Below, piece after piece: positions 38,846 through 59,315 of a stretch of 64,000 nucleotides of DNA (its first letter is position 1; each line of letters starts with the position of its first letter). The notes below the pieces were generated by a model. That model made no database searches. It was not told the origin of the DNA and saw only the letters and a program-made list of their open reading frames with translations. The position numbers were made by a program, and so were the translations under genes. Source of the stretch: Pseudomonadota bacterium (GTDB lineage: Bacteria > Pseudomonadota > Alphaproteobacteria > Rhizobiales > Aestuariivirgaceae); assembly GCA_963205315.1 (NCBI GenBank), contig CAUJIO010000008.1, positions 1-64,000 on the forward strand, given 5' to 3'.

Positions 38846-38849
38846 AGTC

Positions 38850-41290: not shown

Positions 41291-41347
41291 GCCGGTCGAT
41301 GCGGTTCCGATACAGAGAACTGCGCGAATTTGGGAGGACCCGAGACC

Positions 41348-42832
41348 ATGACTTTTCGTAAATTGATGGCTGGCGCAGTGATGGCTGGAGTCGCGTTCTG
41401 CGGCCTCGCCGCCACATCGAACGCCGGCGAATATGATGGCATCACTCTCAACCTGTTGACCCGTCCGGGTCCGGTCATCGCCGGCCGCCTGGCCGAGCGC
41501 GGCAAGGAATTCGAAGCCGCAACGGGTGCCAAGGTTGTTGTGACCGAAGTGCCGGTCGCCGAAATCTTCCAGAAGGTACAGACCGACTGGACGACTGGCA
41601 CCAACTCGATCGACATCGGTGTCTTCGCCGCCGGCTGGGGCGTTGAGCTCGACGCCGCAGGTCTGATCGCCGACCTCGATCCGTACGTTCAGGCCGACAC
41701 CAAGATCGATCTTGCCGATATCGCGCCATACTTCCGCGAATTCGGTCAGAAGATCGGCGGCAAGACCAAGTTGCTGATGATCGATGGCGACTTCCAGATG
41801 GTTTATTACCGCAAGGACGTGTTTGACAAAGCCGGCTTGCAGCCGCCGAAGACCTGGGATGATTATCTCACGCTTGCCAAGACCTTGCACGGCCAGGACT
41901 TTAACGGTGATGGCACGCCCGACTACGGCTCCTGCATCTTCAAGAAGCGCAACGCCCAGTCCTACATGGCGATCCAGACGGTGGCCGCGGCTTTCGTGCA
42001 GACCCAGGGCACGGCGCAGGGTATCCATTTCGACAAGGAAACGATGAAGCCGGTCATCAATAACGAAGCCTGGAAAAAAGCGTTCGAGCTCTACAAGGAA
42101 ACCGGCAAGTACGGCCCGCCGGAAGAACTCAACATGGACATCGGCGATACGCGCGGATTGTTCAAGGCCGGCCGTTGCGCCCTGCTTATCGAATGGGGTG
42201 ACCCGCCGCCGCTGACGCTCGAGCCCGATGCCGCTGCCATCAAGAACCAGCTGTTCTCGGTTGCCGGCCTCGGCACCACGCAAGTTCTCGACCGTGCCAC
42301 CGGCAAGCTCGTTCCGGTGACCAAGGAAAGCGCGCCTTATGCGGTCGATGGCATCAACTACGCGCCGTTCGCGGCGTGGGGTGGTTGGGTCGGCGCTGTC
42401 AACGCCAAGATCACCGATGCGAAGAAGCAGAAAGCCGCCTATGAATTCCTCTCCTACATGAACCAGGCGGCCCAGTCGAACGTCGACGTGACCCTTGGAT
42501 GGACCGGCTACAATCCTTATCGCCTGTCGCAGCTCAAGGACACCGCCCTTTGGGAGAAGGCCGGCTTCACCAAGGAAGCGGCTGCCAGCTACATCGGCGC
42601 TATCAATTCGGCTCTGAACAATCCGAACATGGCTGCCGACATGAAGATCCCGGGTGCTGCCAAGTATACTGGCGTTGTCCTCGACACTGAACTTGCCCGT
42701 TATCTGGCCGGTGAAATCACGGTGGACGAAGCCCTGGCCAACATCGAAGCTGGCTGGGAAGAAATCACCGAAGACTTCGGCCGTGACGAGCAGATCAAGG
42801 CGCTCGGCCTGGCGCTTGGTACGACGAAGTAA
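41348..42832 (+). CDS. ABC importer substrate-binding protein
   Basis: A 494-aa periplasmic binding protein. It has a Sec signal peptide (MTFRKLMAGAVMAGVAFCG, cleavage probably near SNAGEY at about residue 25). The mature N-lobe LLTRPGPVIAGRLAERGKEF and VVVTEVPVAEIFQKV resembles the binding protein at 13271 (EVPVAEMF), so the two are related CUT1 proteins. ATG 41348 is chosen over a GTG-type start 18 bp upstream because the signal peptide then begins properly. A strong terminator-like hairpin follows, before the two permeases and ATPase. Confidence 0.9.
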   Translation: MTFRKLMAGAVMAGVAFCGLAATSNAGEYDGITLNLLTRPGPVIAGRLAERGKEFEAATGAKVVVTEVPVAEIFQKVQTDWTTGTNSIDIGVFAAGWGVELDAAGLIADLDPYVQADTKIDLADIAPYFREFGQKIGGKTKLLMIDGDFQMVYYRKDVFDKAGLQPPKTWDDYLTLAKTLHGQDFNGDGTPDYGSCIFKKRNAQSYMAIQTVAAAFVQTQGTAQGIHFDKETMKPVINNEAWKKAFELYKETGKYGPPEELNMDIGDTRGLFKAGRCALLIEWGDPPPLTLEPDAAAIKNQLFSVAGLGTTQVLDRATGKLVPVTKESAPYAVDGINYAPFAAWGGWVGAVNAKITDAKKQKAAYEFLSYMNQAAQSNVDVTLGWTGYNPYRLSQLKDTALWEKAGFTKEAAASYIGAINSALNNPNMAADMKIPGAAKYTGVVLDTELARYLAGEITVDEALANIEAGWEEITEDFGRDEQIKALGLALGTTK

Positions 42833-42840
42833 GTAACATG

Positions 42841-42873
42841 CCGCCGCCCGGTTCATGCCCGGGCGGCGGTTTT
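42841..42873 (+). terminator. Strong hairpin after the SBP gene
   Basis: An 11-bp GC-rich stem CCGCCGCCCGG / CCGGGCGGCGG (42841-42851 with 42859-42869) is followed by TTTTATGTTTTT. It should stop most transcripts after the binding-protein gene. Confidence 0.8.
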
Positions 42874-42978
42874 ATGTTTTTGGGGATTGCAGGGCCAGTC
42901 CTGCGGCAGCGTATGCAGGCGCCTTTGCGGGCATAATCTCATGACCAATCAATCGAACGCGTTAGCGGAGGCGGGCCA

Positions 42979-44115
42979 ATGAACCGTACCGGTATGATAG
43001 CCACCGGTGGCGCCCAGCGCGAAAGCTGGTCGGAATACTTCGACCGCCATGCGCGCACCTTCTTCATTGCGCCGGCGGTAACGCTGATTCTCATCTTCGC
43101 GATCTTGCCGACCTTCTATTCGATCGTCTTCGCGCTCAGCCGCGTGCGCTTCACACCGCAGGGACTGTCGTTCCGCTTTGTCGGGCTGCAGAATTTCTAC
43201 AAGCAATTCCTCGGCAACGAACAGGTCCATTTCCTCGGCCGCATTGGCAGTATGAGCGTGGCGGGCTGGATCTTCAGTCTCGTCGTCATTGCAGCCATTC
43301 TGTGGTGGTTTTACAAGTCGATTGGCAAAACCTCGTGGATCGGCATGGTCGGCCGCTTTATTTCGGCCTCCGCCGCCATCGGTATCGCACTGCTGCTGAG
43401 CGCCACAGTCCTTTCCGGCAATCAATGGGGTACGTTGCTTACCACCCTCTACTATGTCGTGCTTGGTTGCGGACTGCAGTTTATCATCGGCACTGGACTT
43501 GCCTTCCTGTGCTCTCAGCCGATATCGGGCAAGAACTTCTTCCGGGTCATCTTCTTCATTCCGCTGATGATTACGCCCATGGGCGCCGGTTATGCGTTCA
43601 AGATGCTGTTCGACGTGACGCGCGGCCCCTTCCGTCCCTTCCTCGAATGGATCGGTCTGAGGGACTGGGTCTGGTCGACGGATGCCTGGACGGCACGCAC
43701 CTTCATCGTCATCGCCGATTCCTGGCAGTGGATACCCTTCATCTTCATCTGCATGCTGGCGGCCCTCGAAAATGTCCCGAAAGACCATGTCGAGGCGGCC
43801 CAGGTCGACGGTGCCTCGAGCATCGAAATCTTCCGTGAAATCATCTGGCCGCAAATTGTGCCTGTCGCTGCCACTGTAATTCTCATTCGCATGATCGAGG
43901 CCTTCAAGATCGTCGACCTTCCGGCCATCATGACAGCAGGCGGACCCGGTATCGCCACGGAGTCCATGTCGCTGCACTCCTATTTCATCTGGCGCGCCAA
44001 CGACAACGGCTCATCGGCGGCAATTGCTTACTTGCTGCTGATTCTGACGGTGATCGTCTGCTCGTCATTCTTTAATTACGTGGTGCTGAAACAGATGAAG
44101 CGGGCCAAGGCATGA
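42979..44115 (+). CDS. ABC importer permease (MalF type), enlarged
   Basis: A 378-aa permease, about 70-80 residues longer than the usual 290-310. The core and the EAA loop (HVEAAQVDGASSIEIFREI) are normal. An insertion at about residues 90-150 adds two more hydrophobic segments (SVAGWIFSLVVIAAILWWF and FISASAAIGIALLLSATV). ATG 42979 has AGGCGGG in front. It overlaps the partner permease by four bases. Confidence 0.9.
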   Translation: MNRTGMIATGGAQRESWSEYFDRHARTFFIAPAVTLILIFAILPTFYSIVFALSRVRFTPQGLSFRFVGLQNFYKQFLGNEQVHFLGRIGSMSVAGWIFSLVVIAAILWWFYKSIGKTSWIGMVGRFISASAAIGIALLLSATVLSGNQWGTLLTTLYYVVLGCGLQFIIGTGLAFLCSQPISGKNFFRVIFFIPLMITPMGAGYAFKMLFDVTRGPFRPFLEWIGLRDWVWSTDAWTARTFIVIADSWQWIPFIFICMLAALENVPKDHVEAAQVDGASSIEIFREIIWPQIVPVAATVILIRMIEAFKIVDLPAIMTAGGPGIATESMSLHSYFIWRANDNGSSAAIAYLLLILTVIVCSSFFNYVVLKQMKRAKA

Positions 44116-45302
44116 GCGACGCCACATTCAAGTTCGAGAAGCACAACCGCTCGCTGATGGAGCGTCTGTTCGAGCCACCGGCGGTCGGCAGGATGTCTCC
44201 GGTCGCCAAGCTTGTCGCCAGCGTGATCCTGATCGTGTGGTCGGCCTATGTGTTGTTCCCGATCTATTGGGTGGTCATTACATCCTTCAAGGATGCGCCG
44301 TTGGTTGACGGCGGCCCCTACTATGTTCCCTTCATTGACTTTCAGCCCAAAACCGATGGCTGGAAGTATGCGTTTAACATTTCAACCGACCCATTCTGCG
44401 ATGTTGCGTCCCTCGCGCGCCATCTCTGGCTGAATGTACATAACGCCTTCGCTTTCATCGTTTCGCCTGTCGTCACCATCCCGCCGATGCAGCCCCAGAT
44501 CTGCAAGATCTATCTCGCCTTTACAAACTCGATCGTCATCGGTGTGTCTTCAACTGTACTGTGCGTGGCCTTTGGCAGCATGGCGGCCTACGCGCTTGCG
44601 CGTTTCGAGTATAAGCCGAGGTTTGGAAACGTCCTGATGTTTGCCCTGCTGGCGCTCGCAGCCATTCTCGCCAGTTCATACGTGAACCTGCATTGGACAA
44701 TCATCACGGCTGTCGCACTCGCCCTGTTCGTTCTTCTCGCGCGGACCGTTGGCAGGAGGTTCAAAGGCAGGCTCGGCAACGGCGACATCCTGTTCTGGAT
44801 CATTTCGCAGCGTATCCTTCCGCCTGTCGTGGTGATCATTCCCATCTACATGATGTTCCAGGCTGTGGGACTTCTCGACACGCAGCTGGCGCTGATCCTC
44901 GTCTATGCCGTCGCCAACCTCCCGATCGTCGTTTGGCTGATGCACGACTTCTTCGCGGGTCTTCCCATTGAACTGGAGGAATCGGCCCAGCTTGATGGTG
45001 CCAGCAAGTTCGCCATCTTCTGGGATATCGTCCTGCCGCTGACCAAGCCGGGCCTCGCCGCGACGACCCTTCTGACTCTCATTCTGAACTGGAACGAGTA
45101 TCTGTTCGCTGTCTTTCTTTCCACCGCCAAGGCTTCCACCATGCCGATCATGATCGCATCGAAGAATTCCGGCGAGCGTGGCATCCTCTGGTGGGAGATG
45201 TCGGCGATCATCGTCGTGATGATCGTTCCGGTCATCATCATGGCAATCGTCCTGCAACGCTTCATCGCCAAGGGTGTCCTGCTTGGCGCGGTCAAAGGTT
45301 AA
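44112..45302 (+). CDS. ABC importer permease (MalG type), enlarged
   Basis: A 396-aa permease, more than 100 residues longer than usual. The EAA loop ELEESAQLDGASKFAIFWD and the C-terminal GVLLGAVKG are standard. Extra material lies in a periplasmic loop (about 55-140) and in two additional hydrophobic segments (VLMFALLALAAILASSYV and IITAVALALFVLLARTV) between the first and second halves. Its partner permease is also enlarged, so the two inserts may have co-evolved. The ATPase gene begins 10 bp downstream. Confidence 0.9.
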   Translation: MSDATFKFEKHNRSLMERLFEPPAVGRMSPVAKLVASVILIVWSAYVLFPIYWVVITSFKDAPLVDGGPYYVPFIDFQPKTDGWKYAFNISTDPFCDVASLARHLWLNVHNAFAFIVSPVVTIPPMQPQICKIYLAFTNSIVIGVSSTVLCVAFGSMAAYALARFEYKPRFGNVLMFALLALAAILASSYVNLHWTIITAVALALFVLLARTVGRRFKGRLGNGDILFWIISQRILPPVVVIIPIYMMFQAVGLLDTQLALILVYAVANLPIVVWLMHDFFAGLPIELEESAQLDGASKFAIFWDIVLPLTKPGLAATTLLTLILNWNEYLFAVFLSTAKASTMPIMIASKNSGERGILWWEMSAIIVVMIVPVIIMAIVLQRFIAKGVLLGAVKG

Positions 45303-45312
45303 GAGAAGAGCA

Positions 45313-46380
45313 ATGGCAAGCAACCCCGGCGTACCGGTTTCATTCGACAAGATCCAAAAGTCCTTCGGCCCGGTGCGGGTTCTGGAGGAGCTGAATCTGC
45401 AGGTCGCGCCGGGTGAATTCCTCGTGCTGCTTGGTGCCTCGGGCTCCGGCAAGACAACGGCGTTGCGCATTCTTTCCGGCCTCGAGACGGCGACGTCCGG
45501 AACGATCCGGATTGGCGACCGCGATGTCACCAACATCCTGCCCAAGTATCGTGACATCTCGATGGTGTTCCAGTCCTATGCGCTCTATCCGCACAAGACG
45601 GTGGCCGAGAACATCGGCTTTCCGCTCAAGGTGCGCAAGGTGCCGCAAGACGCGCTGGAGACCGCAGTCAAGGATGCCGCAGCCCAGGTACAGATCGACC
45701 AGCTCTTGCATCGTTATCCGCGCGAGCTTTCCGGCGGCCAGCGCCAGCGTGTGGCGCTCGCCCGCGCCATGGTGCGGCGCCCATCCGTCTTCCTCATGGA
45801 CGAGCCGCTATCCAATCTCGATGCCAAGCTTCGCGGCCACATGCGCGCCGAACTCAAGCACATGCAATCGGCGCTCGGGACTACAACCATCTACGTGACT
45901 CATGATCAGATCGAGGCGATGACATTGGCCCACCGCGTGGCCATTCTCGAGAAGGGTGTGTTGCAGCAACTCGACACGCCGGCGAAGATATACAATGATC
46001 CGGCCAATCTTTTTGTGGCGCAGTTCATCGGCTCGCCGCCGATGAACGTGATCCATGGAAGCCTGGAAGGGTCGAGCTTCAAGACGCGCGGTACCGCTGT
46101 CGATGTGTCAGTCTCGGGCCGTATCCCGTCCGCCATCCTCGGTGTGCGCCCCGAGGATTGTTCGGTCGTAGCCCCGGGCAAGGGCAATATCGAGGCAGAG
46201 ATCTACACCGTCGAACTGATCGGTGATCATACTCTGGTGACGGTGAAAACCGGTTCCGACATGTTGACCGTCAAGGCCCCCAAGGATTTCATTGGAAGCA
46301 TGGGGGAGAACATCGGCGTCTCGGTCAGCAAGGAACATCTTTTCGTCTTTAACGCCGAGACCGGCGCGCGGATGCGTTGA
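45313..46380 (+). CDS. ABC sugar importer ATPase (UgpC/MalK type)
   Basis: A 355-aa CUT1 ATPase: Walker A GASGSGKTTA, Q-loop VFQSYALYP, signature LSGGQRQR, Walker B running into LMDEPLSNLDA, switch VTHDQIEAMTLAHR, then a TOBE-type C-terminus. ATG 45313 with AAGAGAAGAG upstream is the start. It completes the importer formed by the genes at 41348, 42979 and 44112. Its stop is 12 bp from the convergent amidohydrolase stop. Confidence 0.92.
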   Translation: MASNPGVPVSFDKIQKSFGPVRVLEELNLQVAPGEFLVLLGASGSGKTTALRILSGLETATSGTIRIGDRDVTNILPKYRDISMVFQSYALYPHKTVAENIGFPLKVRKVPQDALETAVKDAAAQVQIDQLLHRYPRELSGGQRQRVALARAMVRRPSVFLMDEPLSNLDAKLRGHMRAELKHMQSALGTTTIYVTHDQIEAMTLAHRVAILEKGVLQQLDTPAKIYNDPANLFVAQFIGSPPMNVIHGSLEGSSFKTRGTAVDVSVSGRIPSAILGVRPEDCSVVAPGKGNIEAEIYTVELIGDHTLVTVKTGSDMLTVKAPKDFIGSMGENIGVSVSKEHLFVFNAETGARMR

Positions 46381-46392
46381 AAGCTGTCCGGC

Positions 46393-47694
46393 TCACGCCG
46401 CCTTGCGGCGTGGGTTACGGGCCTGTGACAGTGCCGACCCACGCTTGGCAAAGCGTCCGCCCTTCATGACGCCGACGATCCGCTGTTGATCCTGGAGGAG
46501 GCGGATGTCGTCCAGCGGATTGCCGTCAAGCAAGACGAGGTCGGCGAGAAAGCCTGTTTTGATTTGCCCCGTCTCGCCTTCCATCCGCATCAACTCCGCG
46601 CCCTGGCGCGTTGCGGCGATGATCGCGTCCATCGGTGAAAACCCGAAGAGATTGACGAAGTGCTCGAGGTCGCGGGCGTTCTCGCCCATCGGGTTAGTAA
46701 TGAAGGCGCCGTAATCGCCGCCCGGCAGAACCCGCACGCCGCGCTTGTGCAAATCGCTCATGCAGCGCGTCACGGTTTCCACTTCGCTTTCCATCGATGC
46801 GATCTTCGCCGCACTCCACTTGAGATCGAACTCCCTGTGGCGCTTCAGCATGCTGATCGGCAATCCTGCCGCAGGTGCCACGAACACCCGGTCCTTCGCT
46901 TCTTCCAGCATGTCCCGCGCCTCTGTGTCGGCATGTGGCGCGTGGTAGATGACCTGCACGCCCTGGCGAACGCACATCTTCACGCCCGAGGAACTCGTGC
47001 AATGCGTGGCGACCATCAGTCGGCGGGCATTGGCGACTTCCATGACGGCGGCAAGCTCGCGCTCGCTGATGACGGTCACCGTGTCATCGGCGTGCATATG
47101 GCCCCAGTCGCGATCGCCCGAGACATTCACCTTGATCGTATCAACGCCATCGCGTGCCGCGAGACGCGCCGCCTTGGTGAATTCATCGGCGCCATCGCAT
47201 GTGACGGTGAACCGGACATTGCGCGGGAACGTGAGATAGTTGTTGTCGAGATCACCAAGGTTGCCGGATGGAGAAATCTCCTGCCCCGCGGCGCGCATTC
47301 GCGGCCCCGCGAACAGTCCTCTGTTGATGGCATCGCGCACCGCAACGTCGACGCGCGGCTTGGCGGAAGCCGCCGAGAACAGGCTGGTGAAACCGCACCC
47401 CAGCAGCATTTGCGCGTTTGACAGCGCGACGAGCGAATGATCCTCCGGCTGAATCTCGACCGCCTGATACATGGATGTCAGATTGTTGAAAGAGATGTGG
47501 CAATGCGCTTCCGTCAGGCCGGGCATGATCGTCAGGCCTTCGCAATCGATCGTCTCGTCGTCAGGCGAAACAGGAATGCTCCCGCCGGCGCCCACCACGG
47601 CGGCGATGCGTTCGCCATCGACGCTGACTGTGCCCTTGAACGCCGCGGCCCCGCTGGCATCGATGATTGTGGCGTTGCTGAAATGCGTCCGCAT
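46393..47694 (-). CDS. Amidohydrolase family protein (imidazolonepropionase/prolidase-like)
   Basis: A 433-aa metal-dependent hydrolase. The metal set is visible: His64 and His66 in EAHCHIS, a probable carboxylated Lys in DTIKVNVSG, His in MVATHCTSS and VIYHAPHAD, and the catalytic Asp in LPGGDYGAF. No signal peptide is seen, so it is cytoplasmic. The start is ATG 47694. It lies 117 bp downstream of the GlpD-like gene on the same strand and may share its transcript. It probably cleaves an amide, imide or cyclic substrate; no closer call is justified. Confidence 0.87.
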   Translation of the reverse strand: MRTHFSNATIIDASGAAAFKGTVSVDGERIAAVVGAGGSIPVSPDDETIDCEGLTIMPGLTEAHCHISFNNLTSMYQAVEIQPEDHSLVALSNAQMLLGCGFTSLFSAASAKPRVDVAVRDAINRGLFAGPRMRAAGQEISPSGNLGDLDNNYLTFPRNVRFTVTCDGADEFTKAARLAARDGVDTIKVNVSGDRDWGHMHADDTVTVISERELAAVMEVANARRLMVATHCTSSSGVKMCVRQGVQVIYHAPHADTEARDMLEEAKDRVFVAPAAGLPISMLKRHREFDLKWSAAKIASMESEVETVTRCMSDLHKRGVRVLPGGDYGAFITNPMGENARDLEHFVNLFGFSPMDAIIAATRQGAELMRMEGETGQIKTGFLADLVLLDGNPLDDIRLLQDQQRIVGVMKGGRFAKRGSALSQARNPRRKAA

Positions 47695-47811: not shown

Positions 47812-49494
47812 TCAGCCGCCGGCGGATGGCTGCGGCACGCGCCGTCTCGCGAGCTCGGCTTCGGCATTCTCGATTTCAGCGGTCTTGCGCAATTCGTCCC
47901 ACTTGAGGATCGGTGCGGCGATCGCCGCAGTCTCATGGATCACCGCCGGTGACAACAGCCCCTCCATGGCGATAGCGGTGCGTCGCAGCAGCAGATCGGC
48001 GAGCCGCCTCACGTTCTCATGCGTGCAGATATACGCGATCTCAGCCGAACTGTAGCCGGGAAGCGAAGCAAGCGGCCTGTCGTCTGTCCTTGCCATGAAC
48101 GATTGCAACGCCCTGGCCTGTGTACCGTACCGTTCGAGCAGAAAACGCGCCCTGTCGCGGCTCAACGGCTGCAATGTCTCGGCGAATGCGTCCCGGGCCA
48201 TGTCATCCCGGGGATAGTCACGGCCACCGCCAATCGGCAGATCTTCCGTGCTGATCTTGCGGGTCTTGCCCAGCATCGACAGGACTGCGTCGCAAGTCTG
48301 TTCGGAGAAGGCCCGGAAGGTCGTCCACTTGCCGCCGATGAGCGAAAGAACAGGGATATCGCTGCCCGGAACGATGTCGCGTGCGATGGCGTGATCGCGG
48401 GATACGGACCCCATGTCCACACCGTCTGAACGCGGCAGCGGCCTGACACCGCAATAGGTCAGGATCACATCACGTCGGGACAGTTTGATGCCGGGGAAGA
48501 TCTCGCTCACGGAAGCGAGCATATAGTCGGTTTCCTCCACACTGCAGATCGCCTGGTCCGGGTCCTTGATGGCAATATCGGTTGCGCCGATCAGCGCATT
48601 GCCGAAGAACGGATAGGCCAGATTGAAACGGCCGTCCGATGTGCCGAAATACATCATGCGGTCTTTGAGTGCCGCGATCAGATCCTTGTTGTCGACGATG
48701 ACATGCGAACCCTTCGAACCGCCCATGTGAGCCGAAGAAATGCCCAATCCGGCATTCACCTTGTCGATCCAGGCGCCGCCGGCGTTGATGATGACGTCGG
48801 CCGAGACCTTGTAGGTCGTTCCGCTGATCGTATCTTCCAAAGTCAACATCTGTCCGTCGGCCCGTCCGGCCACGCGGGTATATGTCGAGGCCCTGCTGGT
48901 GGAGCAAGCCGCGAGTCCATCCTGCACCAGCTCAAGGCCGAGCCGTTCGGCGTGTGTGACTCGCCCCTCGTAATAGACGCCGGCGGCAATGATGTCGGAA
49001 GCCAGAGCCGGGTGCTCTCGCCGCAATGTGGCCGTGTTGAAAAAGCGGTGGTCCGGCAGGGCCTGAACCTTGCGGCTATAGGCATCGTAGATCCGCAGGC
49101 CGATCTCGATGAGCAGGGCGCCGCGCTCCTTCAACTTGGCTTTGAAGCCAAGAAAATTCAGGACCGCCGGCGTCAGGCCTGCAAGCCAAGACCTTGCGGG
49201 CAGCACTGTTTCCAGCGCCTTCACGAAATGCGGCGCGTTGCGCAGCAGGCGGTTGCGCTCCATCGCCGATTCTCGCACGAGCCTGAACTCGTTCGTTTCA
49301 AGATACTTGATTCCGCCGTGGATGAGGCGGGAGGGGGCAGCACTGGCTCCGCAGCAGATGTCTCCACGGTCGATCAGCAGGCAGTCCACACCCTGCAGGC
49401 AGAGGTCGCGGAATGTGCCGCAGCCATTGATGCCGGCGCCGATGATGAGAACGGAATAGTGGGCGTGTGCGGACATCTTCGCCTGTTCCGGCAT
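47812..49494 (-). CDS. FAD-dependent glycerol-3-phosphate dehydrogenase family protein (GlpD/EryB-like)
   Basis: A 560-aa membrane-associated flavoprotein. The FAD motif is VLIIGAGINGCGTFRD near the N-terminus, with the GlpD-type block SAAPSRLIHGGIKYLE and the C-terminal DAO_C domain (SAEIAYICTHENVRRLADLL with catalytic-side Arg). GlpD passes electrons from glycerol 3-phosphate to quinone; EryB, a close homologue, oxidises erythritol phosphate. ATG 49494 is taken as start, with AGGAGG 12 nt upstream; ATG 49476 is an alternative. Given the polyol-rich surroundings, a polyol phosphate substrate is quite possible. Confidence 0.85.
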   Translation of the reverse strand: MPEQAKMSAHAHYSVLIIGAGINGCGTFRDLCLQGVDCLLIDRGDICCGASAAPSRLIHGGIKYLETNEFRLVRESAMERNRLLRNAPHFVKALETVLPARSWLAGLTPAVLNFLGFKAKLKERGALLIEIGLRIYDAYSRKVQALPDHRFFNTATLRREHPALASDIIAAGVYYEGRVTHAERLGLELVQDGLAACSTSRASTYTRVAGRADGQMLTLEDTISGTTYKVSADVIINAGGAWIDKVNAGLGISSAHMGGSKGSHVIVDNKDLIAALKDRMMYFGTSDGRFNLAYPFFGNALIGATDIAIKDPDQAICSVEETDYMLASVSEIFPGIKLSRRDVILTYCGVRPLPRSDGVDMGSVSRDHAIARDIVPGSDIPVLSLIGGKWTTFRAFSEQTCDAVLSMLGKTRKISTEDLPIGGGRDYPRDDMARDAFAETLQPLSRDRARFLLERYGTQARALQSFMARTDDRPLASLPGYSSAEIAYICTHENVRRLADLLLRRTAIAMEGLLSPAVIHETAAIAAPILKWDELRKTAEIENAEAELARRRVPQPSAGG

Positions 49495-49649
49495 TGTTTG
49501 ACATCGCCTCCTGTCACGTTGCACCCGTTGGGCGTCATTCGTCTGACGGCACCACGATTATCAGACGCACTCTCTCAAAGGAACGATCGACAGACCCGCC
49601 CCCCTGCACGACTCCGGGGATTGACAAGCAACGGCCATCGCGGCACGTT

Positions 49650-49668
49650 GACCAAAGTGGTCCGACCA
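49650..49668. promoter_or_regulatory. FadR/GntR-type operator before the sugar-acid operon
   Basis: TGGTC-C-GACCA (49658-49668) is the classical dyad bound by FadR-subfamily (FCD) GntR proteins. It overlaps a second dyad, GACCA-AAG-TGGTC (49650-49662). It lies in the divergent region between the GlpD-like gene and the dehydratase gene, about 60 bp before the GTG at 49729. The operon encodes an FCD-type GntR protein at 53522, the natural candidate to bind here. Confidence 0.6.
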
Positions 49669-49728
49669 ATATGATAAACCAGTCGGCGCATCGGATTTGC
49701 TAACCCGGTCCATTGCAGAGGTTGCGGC

Positions 49729-50865
49729 GTGAAAATCAGAGACATCAAAGCCTACGCCATCTCCGTCCGGGTCGAGAACGGCGCAACGCTCGCGATCGGG
49801 CGCGCCGTCAAGCGGGACTCGGTCGTGGTGAAAGTGACAACCGAAAGCGGACTGGTGGGCTATGGGGAATCCCACCATGGCCGGTCGGCCAACATCATTG
49901 CCGAGATCGTCAACACCACGCTGAAGGACATCGTGCTGCCTGCCTCTGCCGATGACGTTGTCGGAGTCTGGTCGAAGATCTACGAATGGCAACTGCGCAG
50001 CCATGGCATGGGCGCCGCCACCGCGATGGCCATGAGCGGCCTCGACATGGCCCTGTGGGACATCCGTGCCAAGGCCGCAGGCTGGCCACTGTGGAAGCTT
50101 CTGGGCGGCAGCAACGCCAGGAAGATCAAGGCCTATGCCGGCGGGGTGGCGCTTGGCTGGCAGGAGCCGCAGGCGCTCATCGATGAAATCGCGCCGCATG
50201 TCGCCCTTGGTTACAAGGCCGTCAAGCTGCGGGTCGGCGACCGCACCGACCGTGACATTGCGCGGGTCGCGGCCGTGCGCAAGGCCTATGGCGACGGCCT
50301 GACGATTCTCGTCGATGCCAACACGGGCTACAGTGTCGAGGATGTGCGCCGCGTCATGCCGGTCTATGAGGAACTCGGTGTCGGCTGGCTCGAGGAGCCG
50401 TTCTCGCCCAGCGATCACTCAAGTTATGCGCGCGCGGCAGCACTGGGCAAAGTGCCTCTCGCCGCCGGCGAAAATCACTACACACGGTTCGAGTTCGCGC
50501 GCGTGCTGGATGATGGTTTCATCACCATTCTCCAGCCTGATCTGTCGAAGGCGGGCGGAATCACCGAGGTCATGCGCATCGCTCACACGGCCTCGACATG
50601 GCGGCTGCCGGTCTGCCCCCATTCCTCCATCACGGCGCTCAACATGGCCAGCACCATCCATTTGCTGAAGTCCATCGACAATGCGGGTTACTTCGAGGCT
50701 GACGTGTCGCATGGCAACCCGTTCCGCGAGAAGATGTCCTCGCCTCCCTACACAGTGATGCCGGACGGAACGGTGGAATTGCCCGATGGTCCGGGGATCG
50801 GCATCGAAATCGATGATGCCTTCCTTGAAGCGCATGCCTTCATTCCCGGCCGGAATTTCGTCTGA
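49729..50865 (+). CDS. Mandelate racemase / muconate lactonizing enzyme family sugar-acid dehydratase
   Basis: A 378-aa enolase-superfamily enzyme. The capping domain is about 1-125 and the barrel follows. Metal ligands Asp196, Glu222 and Glu248 (LVDANTGY, WLEEPF, AAGENHY) line up with mandelate racemase Asp195, Glu221 and Glu247. The Asp271-His298 dyad is present (QPDLSKAGG; CPHSS). The first base motif reads Lys166-x-Arg168 instead of KxK. This points to abstraction of a proton from a sugar acid and dehydration to a 2-keto-3-deoxy acid. The start is GTG 49729 with AGAGG upstream. The ALDH gene begins one base inside its stop. Confidence 0.88.
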   Translation: MKIRDIKAYAISVRVENGATLAIGRAVKRDSVVVKVTTESGLVGYGESHHGRSANIIAEIVNTTLKDIVLPASADDVVGVWSKIYEWQLRSHGMGAATAMAMSGLDMALWDIRAKAAGWPLWKLLGGSNARKIKAYAGGVALGWQEPQALIDEIAPHVALGYKAVKLRVGDRTDRDIARVAAVRKAYGDGLTILVDANTGYSVEDVRRVMPVYEELGVGWLEEPFSPSDHSSYARAAALGKVPLAAGENHYTRFEFARVLDDGFITILQPDLSKAGGITEVMRIAHTASTWRLPVCPHSSITALNMASTIHLLKSIDNAGYFEADVSHGNPFREKMSSPPYTVMPDGTVELPDGPGIGIEIDDAFLEAHAFIPGRNFV

Positions 50866-52307
50866 TGGAAAGCGGAGCCATGTATACGGAACTTGATCTC
50901 TTCATCGGCGGAGAGCGCATTGGCAGTGCACTCCGCAGCGGCGAGCCGGTTCTCAACCCGGCCACCGGCGATGTCATCGGAACATTGCCGCATGCCACGC
51001 GCGCCGATCTCGACCGGGCGCTGGAGACCTCCGCGCGGGCATTCAAGGTCTGGAAACGCACGCTGGCCGTGGATCGCGCCAAGATCATGCGGCGCGCTGC
51101 CGATATCCTGCGCGACAGGCAGGAACGGATCGCGCAGATCCTGACGCTCGAAGAGGGCAAGCCGCTGCGCGAGTCCCGGGCCGAGCTGACGTTGTCGATC
51201 GAAACGCTCGACTGGATGGCGGATGAAGGACGCCGGTCTTACGGCCGCGTCATTCCCGGCCACACGCCGGACGCCCGGGTATTGGCGGTGCGTGAGCCGG
51301 TAGGCCCCGTTGCTGCGTTCACGCCCTGGAATTTTCCGGCCCTCACGACGCTGCGCAAGATATCGGGCGCGTTAGGGGCAGGGTGCTCGATCATCCTCAA
51401 GGCGGCGGAAGAGACCCCCGGAACGGCCGTGGAAATCGCGCGCGCCTTCGAGGACGCCGGCCTGCCAGACGGTGTCCTGCAACTGGTCTTCGGCGTTCCC
51501 GCCGACGTGTCGGAATATCTCCTGGCGTCCGATGTCATCCGCAAGATTTCCTTCACTGGCTCGACCCGGGTTGGCCAGAACCTCGCGGCGATGGCGGCCA
51601 GCCGCAGCATTCGCTTCACCATGGAACTTGGTGGACATGCGCCGGTCCTGGTCTTCCCGGACGCCGATATCGACAAGGCCGTCGAACTGATGGGCGGCTT
51701 CAAGTATCGCAATGCCGGTCAGGTCTGCGTCGCACCGACGCGTTTCTTCGTACACGAGGATGTTCACGATCGCTTCGCGTCCGCTCTGACGGCTTTCGCC
51801 GCCAATCTCAAGGTGGGCGATGGTCTTGACAAAGCCAGCACGATGGGTCCGATGGCCAATCTCCGGCGGGTCGATGCCATGCAAGCCATGGTCGACGACG
51901 CGAAGCGCACAGGCGCAACGATTACCACCGGTGGCGAACGCATCGGCAATGCCGGTTATTTCTTCGCGCCGACGGTAATGACCGGGGTGCAGGACGCCGC
52001 CCGCATTCTTCGCGAAGAGCCCTTCGGTCCGATTGCGCCGATCATGCGTTTCTCCGGCATGGACGAAGTCATCGCCAGAGCGAACAGTCTGCCCTTCGGC
52101 CTGTCATCCTATGTGTTCACCGCCTCGGAGCGCACAGCCCGCATCATGTCGCAGGAACTCGAAGCTGGAATGGTGGCCGTCAACTCGGCAACAGTCTCTC
52201 TGCCGCAGGCTCCGTTCGGCGGAATCAAGTCCAGCGGCGAAGGCTCGGAAGGCGGTATCGAAGGTCTTCAGGCCTACACCCAAACCAAGCTCGTCGTTCA
52301 ACAATAG
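50865..52307 (+). CDS. NAD(P)-dependent aldehyde dehydrogenase (succinate/ketoglutarate semialdehyde type)
   Basis: A 480-aa hydrolytic aldehyde dehydrogenase. The general-base Glu is in TMELGGHAP and the catalytic Cys in NAGQVCVAPT, with PWNFPALTTLRK and GSTRVGQNL at the cofactor site. ATG 50865 shares a base with the upstream stop; ATG 50880 is an alternative. In the operon it probably converts a semialdehyde, for example 2-ketoglutarate semialdehyde, formed after the dehydratase step. Substrate remains inferred. Confidence 0.9.
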   Translation: MESGAMYTELDLFIGGERIGSALRSGEPVLNPATGDVIGTLPHATRADLDRALETSARAFKVWKRTLAVDRAKIMRRAADILRDRQERIAQILTLEEGKPLRESRAELTLSIETLDWMADEGRRSYGRVIPGHTPDARVLAVREPVGPVAAFTPWNFPALTTLRKISGALGAGCSIILKAAEETPGTAVEIARAFEDAGLPDGVLQLVFGVPADVSEYLLASDVIRKISFTGSTRVGQNLAAMAASRSIRFTMELGGHAPVLVFPDADIDKAVELMGGFKYRNAGQVCVAPTRFFVHEDVHDRFASALTAFAANLKVGDGLDKASTMGPMANLRRVDAMQAMVDDAKRTGATITTGGERIGNAGYFFAPTVMTGVQDAARILREEPFGPIAPIMRFSGMDEVIARANSLPFGLSSYVFTASERTARIMSQELEAGMVAVNSATVSLPQAPFGGIKSSGEGSEGGIEGLQAYTQTKLVVQQ

Positions 52308-52338
52308 CGGTTTCGCCGCGCGCCACAGGGAGGTTTGA

Positions 52339-53436
52339 ATGGAACTCGGAATTTTCATGATGCCGCTGCATCCGCCGCATCGGAACGTGACGGAGACGTT
52401 CGAGGAAGACCTCGACAAGATCGTCATGGCGGACAGGCTGGGATATTCCGAAGCCTGGGTGGGTCAGCACTTCACCGCATCGACAGAACCTGTTGCCAAC
52501 CCGTTCTCGTTCATGGCGGCAGCCATTCCGCAAACAAAGCAGATCAAGCTCTGTACCGGCGTGATCAATCTGCCCTGCCATCATCCGGCGACCGTTGCTG
52601 CGGAAGCCGCGCAGTTCGACCACATGACGCGGGGACGCTTCATATTTGGTATCGGTCCCGGCGCGCTGGCCACCGACTTCCAGCTCTACGGCAACGAAGA
52701 GGGCTGGGCACGCTTGCGCAAATGCATGGAATCGATCGATGTCATCACCAGGATCTGGGCCGGCGGGCCTCCCTATGATATCAAGGGCGAATTCTATGCG
52801 ATCACTGTCGACAAGAATATCGTCCCCGAACTCGGCACCGGTTACATGCCGAAGCCTTACCAGCAGCCGCATCCGCCGATTGCCTGTTCGCTGATGAGCC
52901 CGTCGCCAGGGCTCGGCAAGATAACCGGCGAGCGCGGCTGGCTTCCGGTCTCCGCCAACTTCATCCCGGCTTACAGTGTGGCTTCGCACTGGACCAAATA
53001 TGCCGAAGGCTGCGATGCCGCCAACCGCAAGGCCGAACCCGCTGATTGGCGTGTCTCCCGCAATATCATCGTCGCCGATACGGACGAGGAGGCGCGCGCC
53101 ATCGTCTTCGATCCCAAAGGCAGCCTGAATTACTATTTCAGCTATTTGTGGAAGGCGCTCAGCCTCGCCAACTACACGCTTGTCCTCAAGGCCAATCCAA
53201 ACCAGCCGGATGCCGAAGTGACGCTCGACATGCTGCTTGAGGACCTGGTGATCTACGGCAGCCCGAAAACGGTCGCCGAGAAGATTGCCGCCTTCCGCGC
53301 GACAACCGGACCCTTCGGCCGCCTCATTCTGGCGATGCCTGACTGGGAGTACAATCGCGCTGCGCATGAGAAGTCGATGACGCTTCTCGCCACCGAGGTG
53401 CTGCCGAAATTGCGCAAGGCGAAGGCCGCTGCATGA
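52339..53436 (+). CDS. LLM-class flavin-dependent monooxygenase (luciferase-like)
   Basis: A 365-aa bacterial-luciferase-like protein: ELGIFMMPLHPPHRN at the N-terminus, SEAWVGQHF, GVINLPCHHPATVAAE and MTRGRFIFGIGPG are family marks. It uses reduced FMN from a separate reductase to oxygenate a substrate. AGGGAGG precedes ATG 52339. Its presence inside a sugar-acid operon is unexpected. It could open an organic or sulfonated side branch, or act on an aldehyde. Confidence 0.88.
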   Translation: MELGIFMMPLHPPHRNVTETFEEDLDKIVMADRLGYSEAWVGQHFTASTEPVANPFSFMAAAIPQTKQIKLCTGVINLPCHHPATVAAEAAQFDHMTRGRFIFGIGPGALATDFQLYGNEEGWARLRKCMESIDVITRIWAGGPPYDIKGEFYAITVDKNIVPELGTGYMPKPYQQPHPPIACSLMSPSPGLGKITGERGWLPVSANFIPAYSVASHWTKYAEGCDAANRKAEPADWRVSRNIIVADTDEEARAIVFDPKGSLNYYFSYLWKALSLANYTLVLKANPNQPDAEVTLDMLLEDLVIYGSPKTVAEKIAAFRATTGPFGRLILAMPDWEYNRAAHEKSMTLLATEVLPKLRKAKAAA

Positions 53437-53521
53437 TACCCGATTGTGCAGTTGATCAAAATGGGTGCCGGGATTTTTCTGGCCCTTCAACGGCGGTAGG
53501 GCGGAAGCGGCGCCAGATGAC

Positions 53522-54235
53522 ATGACAGATGCGGTGCCCGTCGATAGGGACAAAGTTGAGCAGAGTTCGCGGGTCGTCGCCGAAATTCTGACCTTGATCG
53601 AGCAACGCCGATATCTCCCCGGCGAACGGCTGCCGTCGGAGCGCGATCTCGCCGAGCGGTTCGCGGTTGGCCGTGCCACGATCCGCGAGGCGGTGACGAC
53701 CCTGGAATCCATGCGCTATCTGGAGCGGCGTCCCGGTTCCGGCATCTTCCGGTGTCAGGAGCCTGAATCAGCCAGCCTCGAAACGCTGGTCCTGTTTTCG
53801 GATCTTGGACTTCCCGTCGATCCGAAGACCAATGCGCAGGCGCTCGAAGTCCGCCGCATCATCGAGGTGCAGGCGATCGGGCTGGCGTGTGAACGCCGCG
53901 AGGATATCGATCTGGAGCGGCTGCGAAAGACCTTGGCGCGCTTCCGCGACGACGACAGCTTCGCCAAAGATGCGCCCCAATATGATCATGACTTCCACAT
54001 GGACATCTTTCGCGCCACGCATAACGATATTCTCGTGCGCCTTGTGGCGCCCTTCTACATCATGTCCAAGGCGCGCCGGATCGTCTATTTCAAGGATCGT
54101 GACCGCCGCCGCGTCTCTCATGAACAGCATCTGCAAATGCTGGGATCGATTGAGATGCGGGACAAGAAGGCAGCGATGGAGCAGATGTCCGCGCACATTG
54201 GGCGGGTCGAGCAGTATTTTTTCCTGACGGAATAG
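53522..54235 (+). CDS. GntR-family transcriptional regulator, FadR/FCD subfamily
   Basis: A 237-aa regulator. The winged helix-turn-helix (LPSERDLAERFAVGRATIRE and RRPGSGIF) is followed by a helical FCD domain with the metal-binding DHDFHMDIFRATHN. Such regulators sense organic or sugar acids. ATG 53522 is preferred over a GTG 57 bp upstream. The dyad TGGTC-C-GACCA at 49658 before the operon matches the subfamily's operator style, so autoregulated repression is the likely model. Confidence 0.9.
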   Translation: MTDAVPVDRDKVEQSSRVVAEILTLIEQRRYLPGERLPSERDLAERFAVGRATIREAVTTLESMRYLERRPGSGIFRCQEPESASLETLVLFSDLGLPVDPKTNAQALEVRRIIEVQAIGLACERREDIDLERLRKTLARFRDDDSFAKDAPQYDHDFHMDIFRATHNDILVRLVAPFYIMSKARRIVYFKDRDRRRVSHEQHLQMLGSIEMRDKKAAMEQMSAHIGRVEQYFFLTE

Positions 54236-54289
54236 AGACCAACACAACCGCAGCCGGACAAGGACGCGGCTCGAACGGGAGGACTCACG

Positions 54290-55327
54290 ATGACTTCATC
54301 CATGATGCGTGCTGCGGTGCTGGTTGCTCCAGGCAAGTTCGAAATCAAGCAGGTACCCATTCCCATTTGTGGCCCCAGCGATGTTCTGGTGAAGGTGAAG
54401 CGCGCGGGTATCTGCGGCACCGACATTCACATTTACAAGGGCCACTTCGCGGCGGAAAGCATCCCGCTTATTCCAGGCCACGAATTTTCGGGCGTTGTCG
54501 CCGCGGTCGGCTCCGAAGCCTCGAGCGTCAAGGTCGGAACGGCGGTTGTCGCTGACATCAATGTCGGCTGCGGGCGCTGCTTCCACTGCCGCAAGAACGA
54601 AGTTTTACTGTGTCCGCAGATCAGCCAGATCGGCATTCATCGCAATGGCGCCTTCGCCGAATATGTCCTCGTGCCCGAACGCCTCATCATCCCGATCCCG
54701 GAGGACATGCCGTTTGAAATCGCCGCGCTGACCGAGCCACTCTCGTGTTGTGTGAGGTCGTTCATGCGCAGCAATGTGCGGGCGGGGGAAAGCGTCCTCG
54801 TGCTCGGCACCGGGCCCATTGGAAATCTTCATGTGCAGATGGCACGATTGGTTGGGGCAGCGCCGATCATTGCAGTCGATCTCAATCCGGCCCGCGCCGA
54901 GGCCGCGAAAGCCGCCGGTGCCGACGTCATCATCTCCGATCCGGATGATGTCGACCGCGTGGTGCGTCAATATACAGATGGGCGCGGCGCTGACGTGGGC
55001 ATTGAAAGCGTCGGCAATGCGAAACTCTATGAGCAGGCGTTGCAGCTTGTCCGTCCCGGCGGCCGGGTGGCAGCCTTCGGTGTGGCGGGTGCGGATGCCC
55101 GCTCGCAGTTTGCTCCGTTGCAGATCGTCATGAAGGAGATCGGCATGAAAGGCACCGTCGCAAGCTCAGGCGACGATTTCCATCAGGCATTGACCCTTCT
55201 GAAATACGGCCGGATCAAGACCGGCCGCTTCACCACAGTCGTCCGCAGGCTCGAAGAGACGCAGAGTGCGATCGAGGAATTCATGACCGATCCGAAGATC
55301 TTCAAGATTCAGATCGCGCTCGAATAG
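54290..55327 (+). CDS. Zinc-dependent medium-chain alcohol dehydrogenase
   Basis: A 345-aa MDR dehydrogenase of the sorbitol/threonine dehydrogenase branch: catalytic zinc Cys in AGICGTDIHIYKG, GHEFSG, structural zinc cysteines in CGRCFHCRKNEVLLC, Rossmann motif VLGTGPIGNLHVQM. GGGAGG precedes ATG 54290. As last gene of the dehydratase operon it probably oxidises the incoming polyol or sugar to the acid. Confidence 0.9.
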   Translation: MTSSMMRAAVLVAPGKFEIKQVPIPICGPSDVLVKVKRAGICGTDIHIYKGHFAAESIPLIPGHEFSGVVAAVGSEASSVKVGTAVVADINVGCGRCFHCRKNEVLLCPQISQIGIHRNGAFAEYVLVPERLIIPIPEDMPFEIAALTEPLSCCVRSFMRSNVRAGESVLVLGTGPIGNLHVQMARLVGAAPIIAVDLNPARAEAAKAAGADVIISDPDDVDRVVRQYTDGRGADVGIESVGNAKLYEQALQLVRPGGRVAAFGVAGADARSQFAPLQIVMKEIGMKGTVASSGDDFHQALTLLKYGRIKTGRFTTVVRRLEETQSAIEEFMTDPKIFKIQIALE

Positions 55328-55335
55328 CCGGGCCA

Positions 55336-56403
55336 TCAGGGGCTGTCGCCGCCATCGTGGGCTTGGGTCCGCGACGCCGTGAAAATCTGCCAGACGGCGA
55401 TGAAAATCGCCGCAACAACCGGTCCGATGACAAAACCGTTGAGGCCGAACATCTCGAGCCCGCCGAGGGTTGAAATCAGCACCACATAGTCTGGCAACTT
55501 GGTATCCTTTCCGACCAGTGCAGGGCGCAGGAGATTATCCACCAGCCCGATGACGAGGGCGCCGAAGGCGATCAGCACCATGCCCTTCCACACCGCTCCC
55601 GTCGCCAAGAGATAGACCGCGACAGGCAGCCAGACGAGTGCTGCGCCGACGGCGGGCAGGAGGGACAGGAATGCCATCAGGACGGCCCAGAGCAGCGGCG
55701 CGCTAATCTCCAGAAACCAGAAGATCAGGCCCCCGAGCGCACCTTGCACCATCGAAACAAGGATATCGCCCTTGACGGTCGCGCGGACCACGGCAGTGAA
55801 TTTGCTGAAAAGTGCGGTCTGCTGTTCGGCGCGCAATGGAATGGCTGTCTTGATGCGATCAAACAGGCGGTCGCCGTCGCGCAGCAGGAAGAACAGGAGA
55901 TAGACCATGACGCCGAGATCGATGAAGAACTGAACCGTTGATTGTCCGATGGTGAGAACTTGCGCCGCGAGAAACTGGCTGCCCTGTTGCAGACCATAGG
56001 CCAGCTTTTGCTGGACTGCCGCCAGATTGGCGACGCCGAAGCGGGTCAGCAGTTGTTTCGCCCAATGCGGCAGCGCGTCCGCCACCTGCTGGAAGTAGTG
56101 TCCGAAATCCAGTTGGCCGGATTTTATCATGTCAAACAGTCCGGTCGCCTCCTGCACCAGCGCCGCGGCGAGTGCGGCCAGCGGCAGCATCACGATGACG
56201 ATGACGATCAAGACAGTGGCGAAGGCCGCGAGACTGGGACGCTGCCCCAGCAATCCAAGCAGCCGCCGGTACACCGGTGCAAACAGGATGGCCGTCACCG
56301 TGCCCCAGAGAATGGCCCCGCTGAATGGCCAGAGAATCCAGCAGAACGCCAGCGATGCCGCGATGAGAAGAAGACGGAATGCTTTCTCTTCAAGGCTGCG
56401 CAA
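55336..56403 (-). CDS. AI-2E transporter family membrane protein
   Basis: A 355-aa integral membrane protein of the AI-2E/YdiK family. There is a hydrophobic pair at the N-terminus, a long amphipathic mid-region (FGHYFQQVADALPHWAKQLL), then about five helices including VLISTLGGLEMFGLNGFVIGP, the family's best-conserved stretch (here within 325-350). No ATG fits; TTG 56403 with GGAAGG eight bases upstream gives a normal length and start MRSLEEKAF. The frame is open further upstream, but that is a shadow of the permease gene. Cargo unknown; many members are Na+/H+ antiporters rather than AI-2 exporters. Confidence 0.82.
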   Translation of the reverse strand: MRSLEEKAFRLLLIAASLAFCWILWPFSGAILWGTVTAILFAPVYRRLLGLLGQRPSLAAFATVLIVIVIVMLPLAALAAALVQEATGLFDMIKSGQLDFGHYFQQVADALPHWAKQLLTRFGVANLAAVQQKLAYGLQQGSQFLAAQVLTIGQSTVQFFIDLGVMVYLLFFLLRDGDRLFDRIKTAIPLRAEQQTALFSKFTAVVRATVKGDILVSMVQGALGGLIFWFLEISAPLLWAVLMAFLSLLPAVGAALVWLPVAVYLLATGAVWKGMVLIAFGALVIGLVDNLLRPALVGKDTKLPDYVVLISTLGGLEMFGLNGFVIGPVVAAIFIAVWQIFTASRTQAHDGGDSP

Positions 56404-56464: not shown

Positions 56465-57277
56465 TCAAGCCGTCCGGGAACTGCGGCGGCGGAGTGCGGC
56501 AGCCGCAGTGACGAGCAGAAGGCCGGGCACGAATACAACCGTTGCCATGGCGGGATAGAGCGGCGACGAGCCGACCGCAATGCCGCTGAAGATGAATGTG
56601 GGGATTGTGCGCGTCGAGCCCGCAAGGCTGTAAGTGATGTAGAAGTTACCCCAGCTGAGCAGAAACGCGAAGATCGCCGCCGAGAAGATTCCCGGCCAAA
56701 GCAGGGGGATCGTGACGTAGCGGTATACCTCCCACGTGTTGGCGCCGCAGTCGCGTGCGGCATCCTCCAGTTGCGGGTCGAAACTGTAGACCTGCACGGC
56801 GACGATCACCATCACAAAGGGCGTGATGTAGACGATGTGGCCGATGATGGCGGTAACGACGCCCGTGTTGAATCCGAGCCAGCGGCCAAGCACGGAGAAC
56901 CACAGCAGGAGAACAATTCCCAGCAGCAGTTGCGGAAAAGCCAATGGTGCCCCTGCGAGTGCCTGAAACGCTGACTTGCCCCGGAACCGGTATCGCACCA
57001 CCGCAATCGCGGCCATCGTACCGATCACCGTCGAAACAATCGTGGCGAAGAAAGCGATCAGCGTCGAGTTGCGAAGGGCGGAGAGCGCCGGGCCGCTGTT
57101 GAAAAGCTCGCCATACCATTTGAGCGAAATTCCCTCGAACGGCAATGTGAGGTAGCGCCCCTCCTGGAGCGAAAAAGCCATCAGCGTGAAGATCGGAATG
57201 TAGAAGAACAGCAGCATCACCGCCATCACGCTATAAAGCGAAATGTCGATCAACCGGTCCTGGCCGCGGGCCGTCAC
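56465..57277 (-). CDS. Polyamine-type ABC importer permease (PotC/YdcV type)
   Basis: A 270-aa inner-membrane permease with six hydrophobic segments and the EAA loop QLEDAARDCGANTWEVYRYV. The GTG at 57277 overlaps the preceding permease stop by four bases (GTGA) and gives the normal length; the longer open frame is a shadow. It pairs with the PotB-type permease and the ATPase at 58146. Confidence 0.9.
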   Translation of the reverse strand: MTARGQDRLIDISLYSVMAVMLLFFYIPIFTLMAFSLQEGRYLTLPFEGISLKWYGELFNSGPALSALRNSTLIAFFATIVSTVIGTMAAIAVVRYRFRGKSAFQALAGAPLAFPQLLLGIVLLLWFSVLGRWLGFNTGVVTAIIGHIVYITPFVMVIVAVQVYSFDPQLEDAARDCGANTWEVYRYVTIPLLWPGIFSAAIFAFLLSWGNFYITYSLAGSTRTIPTFIFSGIAVGSSPLYPAMATVVFVPGLLLVTAAAALRRRSSRTA

Positions 57278-58146
57278 GTGCCGAACCCCGCCCGCTTCAT
57301 GTTCAGTATGCGGCTGAAGAGCAGCACCACGAAGACCGAGACAACCATCAGCACCAATGTGAGGGCAGCACCCAGCGGCCAGTTCACGCGCGTCTCGAAT
57401 GTTTGGCGAATGAGTTCGGCCGACATCGGTGAAACGCCACCGCCCAGAACCTTGGGCTCGAGAAACACGCCGACGCCAAGCAGGAAGATCAGCACGCTGC
57501 CAGCCCAGATGCCGGGTTTGCACAGCGGCAACGTCACCTCCCAATGCGCCCGCCATTTGCTGGCACCCGCATCATAGGCGGCGAGGATGAGAGAGCGGTC
57601 GATGGTGTCGATCGAGAGGTAAAGTGTGAAAATCGCAAAGGGCAGGAGATTGTACACCATGCCCAGCAGCGTTGCCCAATCCGTGAAGAGGAAGGCAACG
57701 GACTCGGGCGGCAGGCCAAGTCCCGACAGAAGGAAGTTGGCCGCACCCTTCTTGTCGAGGAAGAGGACCCAGCCAAATGTCTTCAGTGTCGCGTCGGTGA
57801 TGAATGCAAACGTAATCAGGATTTTGATTTCGTTCTCAAATCGCTTGAAGCGCGTTGCCAGCCCATAGGCAATGGGAAAGGCCAGGACCATGCAGATTGC
57901 CACGCATGCGGCCGCCATGACCAGAGTGTGGCCGAGGATGGTCCAGTAATGCGGCTTGCTGAACACGTCGGTCCATGTGGCGAGGTCCCAGGTCCAGCGC
58001 AGCTGGAAATCCCGCGTACGCTGGAACGTGAGAATGAATGTCATCAGCAGCGGCGCGATGAAACAGGTCGTCTGCAGCAGCACGCTCGGCAGCGCCTTTA
58101 CCAGCAGTCCCGGATCGTGCCAGCTTCGGGTGGCGGTCTGCTCCAT
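57274..58146 (-). CDS. Polyamine-type ABC importer permease (PotB/YdcU type)
   Basis: A 290-aa inner-membrane permease with six hydrophobic segments and the EAA-like loop SLILAAYDAGASKWRAHWE. Its ATG shares one base with the ATPase stop, and its own stop overlaps the PotC-type start, so the three genes are translationally coupled. Confidence 0.9.
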   Translation of the reverse strand: MEQTATRSWHDPGLLVKALPSVLLQTTCFIAPLLMTFILTFQRTRDFQLRWTWDLATWTDVFSKPHYWTILGHTLVMAAACVAICMVLAFPIAYGLATRFKRFENEIKILITFAFITDATLKTFGWVLFLDKKGAANFLLSGLGLPPESVAFLFTDWATLLGMVYNLLPFAIFTLYLSIDTIDRSLILAAYDAGASKWRAHWEVTLPLCKPGIWAGSVLIFLLGVGVFLEPKVLGGGVSPMSAELIRQTFETRVNWPLGAALTLVLMVVSVFVVLLFSRILNMKRAGFGT

Positions 58147-59249: not shown

Positions 59250-59277
59250 CGTGCTCGCATATTGGTTCTGGAAAGTG

Positions 59278-59303
59278 AAAAGGGCGGCAGCGCACTGCCG
59301 CCC
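59278..59303 (-). terminator. Hairpin after the polyamine-type SBP gene
   Basis: On the minus strand a 9-bp stem GGGCGGCAG / CTGCCGCCC (59295-59303 with 59282-59290) with loop TGCG ends in TTTT. It lies directly after the SBP stop and before the ATPase gene, so it should attenuate downstream expression. Confidence 0.75.
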
Positions 59304-59315
59304 TGCATTCTGGAC

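Follow-up and report, generated by a model that had tools for sequence, protein, structure and literature searches.

A predicted operon of five genes in a 64,000-nucleotide stretch of an alphaproteobacterial genome (family Aestuariivirgaceae; contig CAUJIO010000008.1, positions 1 to 64,000; hereafter the window) combines an enolase-superfamily enzyme with a luciferase-like monooxygenase (LLM), and the recurrence of this pairing in a few distant bacteria hints at an as yet uncharacterised route of degradation. The genes lie on the plus strand at 49729-55327 and encode the enolase, an aldehyde dehydrogenase (ALDH), the LLM, a GntR regulator and a zinc-dependent dehydrogenase, separated in that order by short gaps of -1, 31, 28 and 54 nt (Table 1). 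The Pfam domains of all five proteins exceed the curated cut-offs, and terminator-like sites within the stretch are no more frequent than chance (4 versus 4.4 expected). We consider it somewhat probable that these genes constitute an inducible operon for the catabolism of a carboxylic acid of carbohydrate type, with a step that depends on reduced flavin mononucleotide (FMNH2) and O2. A preliminary description of this DNA, made from the letters alone, had placed the five genes correctly, and its account of the sequence was right in every detail tested.

The association of enolase and LLM was followed through 45 enolase loci (L-numbers below) from one scan of named genomes, which together with the window gave 46 compared enzymes. 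Two of the 45 loci have an LLM homologue adjacent to the enolase or separated from it by one gene, a Rhodospirillales metagenome-assembled genome (L019, 62% identity) and Litoreibacter roseus (L043, 54%); this count is a lower bound because several other loci sit on short contigs. A tree of 56 enolases groups the window with L014, L015, L019, L043 and L108 in one clade (support 98/94), and half of its six members (window, L019 and L043) carry the LLM. The window and L019 are sisters in this tree (99/91) and again in a tree of 39 LLMs (98/95), as expected from co-inheritance of enolase and LLM. The LLM sisters belong to a six-member clade (99/97), which also holds L043, L059, L110 and L111; no enolase was found in the stretches examined of the last three. 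Within the family, none of the 68 other genomes matches the enolase (E 1e-100) or the LLM (E 1e-60), which suggests that the cluster was acquired by this genome; as the only matches were its own, no comparison within the immediate family was available. Gene calls for 276 neighbouring open reading frames were noisy in GC-rich DNA and served only to help pick ten proteins.

LLM relatives recur beside a second subfamily of enolases with a lysine-x-arginine (KxR) motif, termed ENO2, whose members are about 32% identical to the window enolase. Counted within flanks of 1.5 kb or less, 6 of 31 ENO2 loci have a relative 40-42% identical to the window LLM as the immediate neighbour of the enolase. Five of these loci belong to one genus and the sixth (L153/L167) to another family; in L167 the pair is transcribed divergently from a sugar-type ABC transporter that includes an SBP_bac_1 protein. 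Viewed from the LLM side, a window-type or ENO2-type enolase is present in 3 of 20 wide stretches around LLM relatives (L092, L095 and L101). LLM and ENO2 overlap in 12 of 385 genomes of the class, where 1.3 are expected (P = 3e-11), but we give this co-occurrence little weight because of the relatedness of the genomes and because both superfamilies are abundant in several of them. As far as gene neighbourhoods can tell, the linkage of LLM to KxR enolases is uncommon but not accidental: real, but optional.

Two-gene ENO2-LLM units lie at 9202-11531 in L101 and at 7274-9835 in L167. Such units are surrounded by housekeeping genes in genome G349, whereas in genome G149 they lie next to sugar-type ABC transporter, homogentisate-dioxygenase-like and FAA-hydrolase genes. 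In L173 (1546-3184), an ENO2-type enolase is directly beside a homologue of the L043 flavin reductase (30% identity), and no LLM match was found in this 12-kb contig.

A predicted control element precedes the five genes. Most sites of the FadR subfamily consist of TKGT and ACMA boxes in which 3 nt separate GT from AC, according to passages of PMC4494728, and the window protein combines GntR and FCD domains with a predicted operator of the TKGT-N3-ACMA type, TGGTCCGACCA, at its own operon. This site is the only perfect TGGTNNNACCA in the window, where 0.46 would be expected. L015, L019, L043 and L108 each have a regulator, 46-49% identical to the window protein, next to the enolase or its LLM. 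Exact TGGTNNNACCA sites are found at 6049 in L043 and at 4686 in L108, in both before the binding-protein gene of a transporter-enolase operon, and at 7385 in L015, before transporter genes; the L019 site (9862, before the enolase) has one mismatch. Against a background of 36 exact sites in 1.53 Mb of other loci, at least four exact sites among the five loci in 150-nt stretches would occur by chance with a probability of about 8e-10. The retention of an operator in the published FadR-subfamily form ahead of five related operons argues that, very probably, the operon is under the control of its own GntR regulator, as is a carbohydrate-type transporter in L043 and L108. Regulators of the DgoR, ExuR and LldR type have the same two domains and the same TGGTNNNACCA operator, although the window protein, unlike them, reaches no curated equivalog. 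The promoter-like site that overlaps the operator is the sole sigma-70-like match in 49300-55600, yet 1.8 such matches are expected by chance.

Mandelate racemase (MR) itself has a KxK motif, located on the second strand of the barrel, which defines the MR subgroup. The preliminary description had read Lys166-x-Arg168 at this place in the window enolase and had found the metal ligands and the Asp-His dyad intact, and both readings hold. The MR_MLE domains score well above the Pfam cut-offs (N-terminal, 64 bits against 22; C-terminal, 199.8 against 29.4), the motif is KLR in the numbering of that description, and D196, E222 and E248, which from the superfamily we take to be metal ligands, are invariant in 20 of 20 aligned enolases, as are D271 and H298, presumably the Asp-His dyad. 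The further claim that KxR denotes a specific dehydratase subgroup finds no support. KLR is present in 45 of the 46 compared enzymes (the exception, L058, is an outlier at 30% identity) and K-x-R in all three ENO2 members aligned, so that, as judged from these alignments, KxR is the mark of a broad enolase group and not of one specific dehydratase. The genes around KxR enolases are also quite different: TctC-type binding proteins accompany them in L023, a betaproteobacterial locus, and in Roseomonas L037, and 12 Roseomonas-type loci have a tandem ENO2-enolase pair. The motif was accordingly rejected as a unique signature of one enzyme. In those 12 loci (L030, L031, L033-L035, L037-L039, L041, L042, L044 and L045), ENO2 is 58-59% identical to that of L101 and immediately precedes the window-type enolase; it is itself preceded by a GntR gene and a further enolase, that is, three enolases are encoded consecutively.

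Sixteen NCBIfam models match the window enolase, none above its cut-off, and ENO2 likewise reaches no NCBIfam specificity model. The nearest curated models are those of arabinonate, galactonate and talarate/galactarate dehydratases, which have the same fold and catalytic residues; the window enzyme stays far below their cut-offs (for example, 199 of 650 bits) and has Arg at the second position of KxK. It is probably an acid-sugar dehydratase or isomerase. The nearest solved structure is 3bjs, an MR/MLE protein of Polaromonas sp. JS666 that carries only this generic name and shares the KLR motif and catalytic residues with the window enolase. We infer that 3bjs is the product of a Polaromonas plasmid gene that is about 50% identical to the window enolase over its full length. 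This plasmid gene has genes for TctC-type binding proteins, for hydroxyacid dehydrogenases and for a semialdehyde dehydrogenase as neighbours and, unlike in the window, no LLM is annotated in the 19 kb examined.

The LLM itself scores 167.6 bits against Pfam PF00296 (cut-off 27.9), and its AlphaFold model (pLDDT 93.5) matches the barrel fold. The closest structure to the model is 3,6-diketocamphane monooxygenase (Z 43.0, 2.7 A over 355 residues; 36.6 for the next protein), a ranking with which Foldseek agrees, and 3,6-diketocamphane 1,6-monooxygenase (DKCMO; 4uwm/5aec), a type II Baeyer-Villiger enzyme, is closest by both sequence (28% identity) and fold. His44 is invariant in the alignment of the window's LLM family. 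The genome encodes four flavin reductases, and CofH was not found in it (99.86% complete), which favours FMNH2 as the cofactor of the LLM; dependence on F420, considered as a candidate, is unlikely as CofH is absent. In Litoreibacter roseus, a flavin reductase gene follows the LLM gene and a gene for DHBP synthase (riboflavin synthesis) follows the regulator gene. A flavin reductase is also annotated near the LLM relative in seven of eight plasmid stretches, examined out of 29 records with an LLM match. The LLM relatives of L110-L116 and L166 lie on Agrobacterium, Phaeobacter, Mesorhizobium and Ancylobacter plasmids, in flavin-rich catabolic islands with flavin reductases, ribB, riboflavin kinase, GMC and flavin adenine dinucleotide (FAD) oxidoreductases and sigma-54 regulators.

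In the catabolic operon that we propose, an ABC transporter would import the acid, and the FadR-type regulator would release the operator on binding the substrate or an intermediate. The enolase would abstract the alpha-proton of the Mg-bound carboxylate, presumably with the Asp271-His298 dyad as the base because Arg168 is a poor one, and would then either eliminate water to give a 2-keto-3-deoxy acid or isomerise the acid. The zinc-dependent dehydrogenase may form a further ketone, and the LLM may add one oxygen atom, possibly by Baeyer-Villiger insertion, with FMNH2 supplied by a reductase encoded elsewhere; the semialdehyde so formed could finally be oxidised by the ALDH to a central metabolite. 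The preliminary description had taken the LLM to imply an oxygenation step or a modified substrate. An oxygenation step linked to the enolase is made plausible by LLM relatives next to KxR enolases in several distant genomes, by the operator ahead of the operon in five related loci and by the flavin reductase beside the LLM in Litoreibacter. More tentatively, and on balance doubtfully, KxR enolases and this LLM family might constitute a conserved two-enzyme module for the O2-dependent breakdown of sugar-type acids, in which the enolase would yield a 2-keto-3-deoxy acid, the zinc-dependent dehydrogenase would convert it into a beta-diketo acid and the FMNH2-dependent LLM would cleave the latter by oxygen insertion.

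Several observations weigh against an O2-dependent catabolic operon. No curated family indicates a substrate. An LLM was not seen in the stretch examined of 43 of the 45 named loci, some of them on short contigs, and LLM and window-type enolase do not significantly co-occur, coinciding at strict cut-offs in 2 genomes of 385 (P = 0.08). In L015 and L108, the enolase and regulator genes are followed by a gene for an LVIVD-repeat protein or its homologue instead of the LLM; as these loci keep enolase, regulator and operator without it, the LLM is not essential to every version of the operon. No flavin reductase was found on the window's contig (C8). Finally, His10 and Ser44 of DKCMO, flavin contacts at the isoalloxazine ring according to passages of PMC4631483, are replaced in the window's LLM family by Met8 (19 of 20) and Gly42 (20 of 20), so that Baeyer-Villiger activity of the LLM is a lead only. 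The preliminary description had named a dehydratase of known specificity, with no need for a monooxygenase that is unlinked in relatives, as what would speak against it, and the outcome is mixed: the pairing is present in half of the window's own enolase clade, KxR loci at large mostly lack the LLM in the stretches examined, and for many LLM relatives the surroundings show no enolase.

One alternative is that the LLM is a passenger, acting on a side product or an unrelated compound, and that the core is an ordinary acid-sugar dehydratase operon of transporter, KxR enolase and GntR regulator. Most KxR loci lack the LLM, as do three members of the same clade (L014, L015 and L108), and its relatives on the eight plasmid stretches mostly keep company with flavin reductases and further oxidoreductases; an MR-family gene is annotated in only two of the eight. 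Against a passenger role speak the co-inheritance of the LLM with the enolase in the window and L019 and its recurrence beside the second KxR enolase, and we regard this explanation as rather unlikely. L014 has neither the LLM nor the LVIVD-repeat protein. The proteins in the LLM's place, at 12040-13317 in L015 (Kaistia) and 10937-12184 in L108 (Shinella), are 82% identical to each other.

A different substrate, an alicyclic or terpenoid-like acid, would make the enolase a racemase or isomerase and the LLM a Baeyer-Villiger or hydroxylating enzyme, as proposed for SAR202 bacteria. The enzyme closest in structure to the LLM belongs to the camphor pathway, and the LLM-clade relatives in L110 and L111 sit with coenzyme A (CoA) transferase, thiolase and acyl-CoA dehydrogenase genes. 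SAR202 bacteria, moreover, expand the same two superfamilies: passages of PMC6946804 and PMC5395668 describe expansions of enolase-superfamily enzymes and FMN/F420 monooxygenases, proposed to act on resistant organic matter. In those passages, however, the expansions are genome-wide and partly of different subclades, and no enolase-monooxygenase operon like that of the window is described. Carbohydrate-type ABC transporters within the operons of L043 and L108 and near L019 and L167, nearest enolase models that are sugar-acid dehydratases (though below cut-off) and the lost DKCMO flavin contacts make an alicyclic or terpenoid-like substrate quite improbable. That the LLM is instead a flavin-dependent dehydrogenase or reductase, as could be suspected from the F420-dependent dehydrogenases that share its fold at Z 28-30, is very improbable given the missing CofH, the monooxygenases at the top of the structure ranking and the flavin reductase that accompanies a close relative.

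To our knowledge, acid-sugar dehydratase pathways are described without an oxygenase. Titles, abstracts and passages of the open-licence literature, with subscription papers mostly outside this body, yielded no description of an enolase-LLM operon, and searches that named the LLM-enolase pair returned no papers; nor did the open-licence literature yield a described example of an O2-dependent enolase-LLM route for sugar-type acids. A recurrent enolase-monooxygenase pair, if true, would thus define an O2-dependent branch of these pathways and would give the first functional handle on the KxR enolase group, including the crystal structure 3bjs. Litoreibacter roseus, with its own flavin reductase beside the LLM, would offer a small model for enolase-plus-monooxygenase chemistry of the SAR202 type.

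Table 1. Predicted genes and sites of the operon and its surroundings in the window.
Feature	Position	Strand	Basis or remark
Predicted FadR-type GntR operator TGGTCCGACCA	49658..49668	.	60 nt before enolase start
Promoter-like site TTGACC-16-TATGAT, upstream of enolase	49648..49675	+	sigma-70-like pattern; overlaps operator
Enolase-superfamily (MR/MLE) enzyme, 378 aa, K166-L-R168	49729..50865	+	Pfam MR_MLE_N/C
Aldehyde dehydrogenase, succinate-semialdehyde-dehydrogenase-like	50865..52307	+	Pfam Aldedh; best model TIGR01780
Luciferase-like flavin monooxygenase (LLM), 365 aa	52339..53436	+	Pfam Bac_luciferase
FadR-subfamily GntR regulator, GntR + FCD domains	53465..54235	+	Pfam
Zinc-dependent medium-chain dehydrogenase, threonine/inosose dehydrogenase-like	54290..55327	+	Pfam ADH_N/ADH_zinc_N
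Divergent GlpD-like FAD oxidoreductase	47812..49476	-	start picked within its open reading frame
Amidohydrolase, downstream of GlpD-like gene	46393..47694	-	putative pathway member
ABC transporter (binding protein, two permeases, ATPase), candidate importer	41330..46380	+	model matches

The ALDH scores 483 bits against its best model, TIGR01780, under the cut-off of 646. The divergent GlpD-like gene may share a regulated intergenic region with the operon. A motif scan of the window found no operator at the ABC transporter genes at 41330-46380, and their role is a guess, because two genes on the reverse strand intervene and no operator lies there. Upstream of this transporter, at 37259-41199, are genes for a GMC oxidoreductase, a CoA-transferase-like protein and an enoyl-CoA hydratase; LLM relatives in L112-L114 are accompanied by homologues of the GMC enzyme (52-55% identity). 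On the other side of the operon, at 56465-60497 on the minus strand, lies a polyamine-type ABC transporter (two permeases, ATPase and binding protein), and similar transporters accompany LLM relatives in L113-L116.

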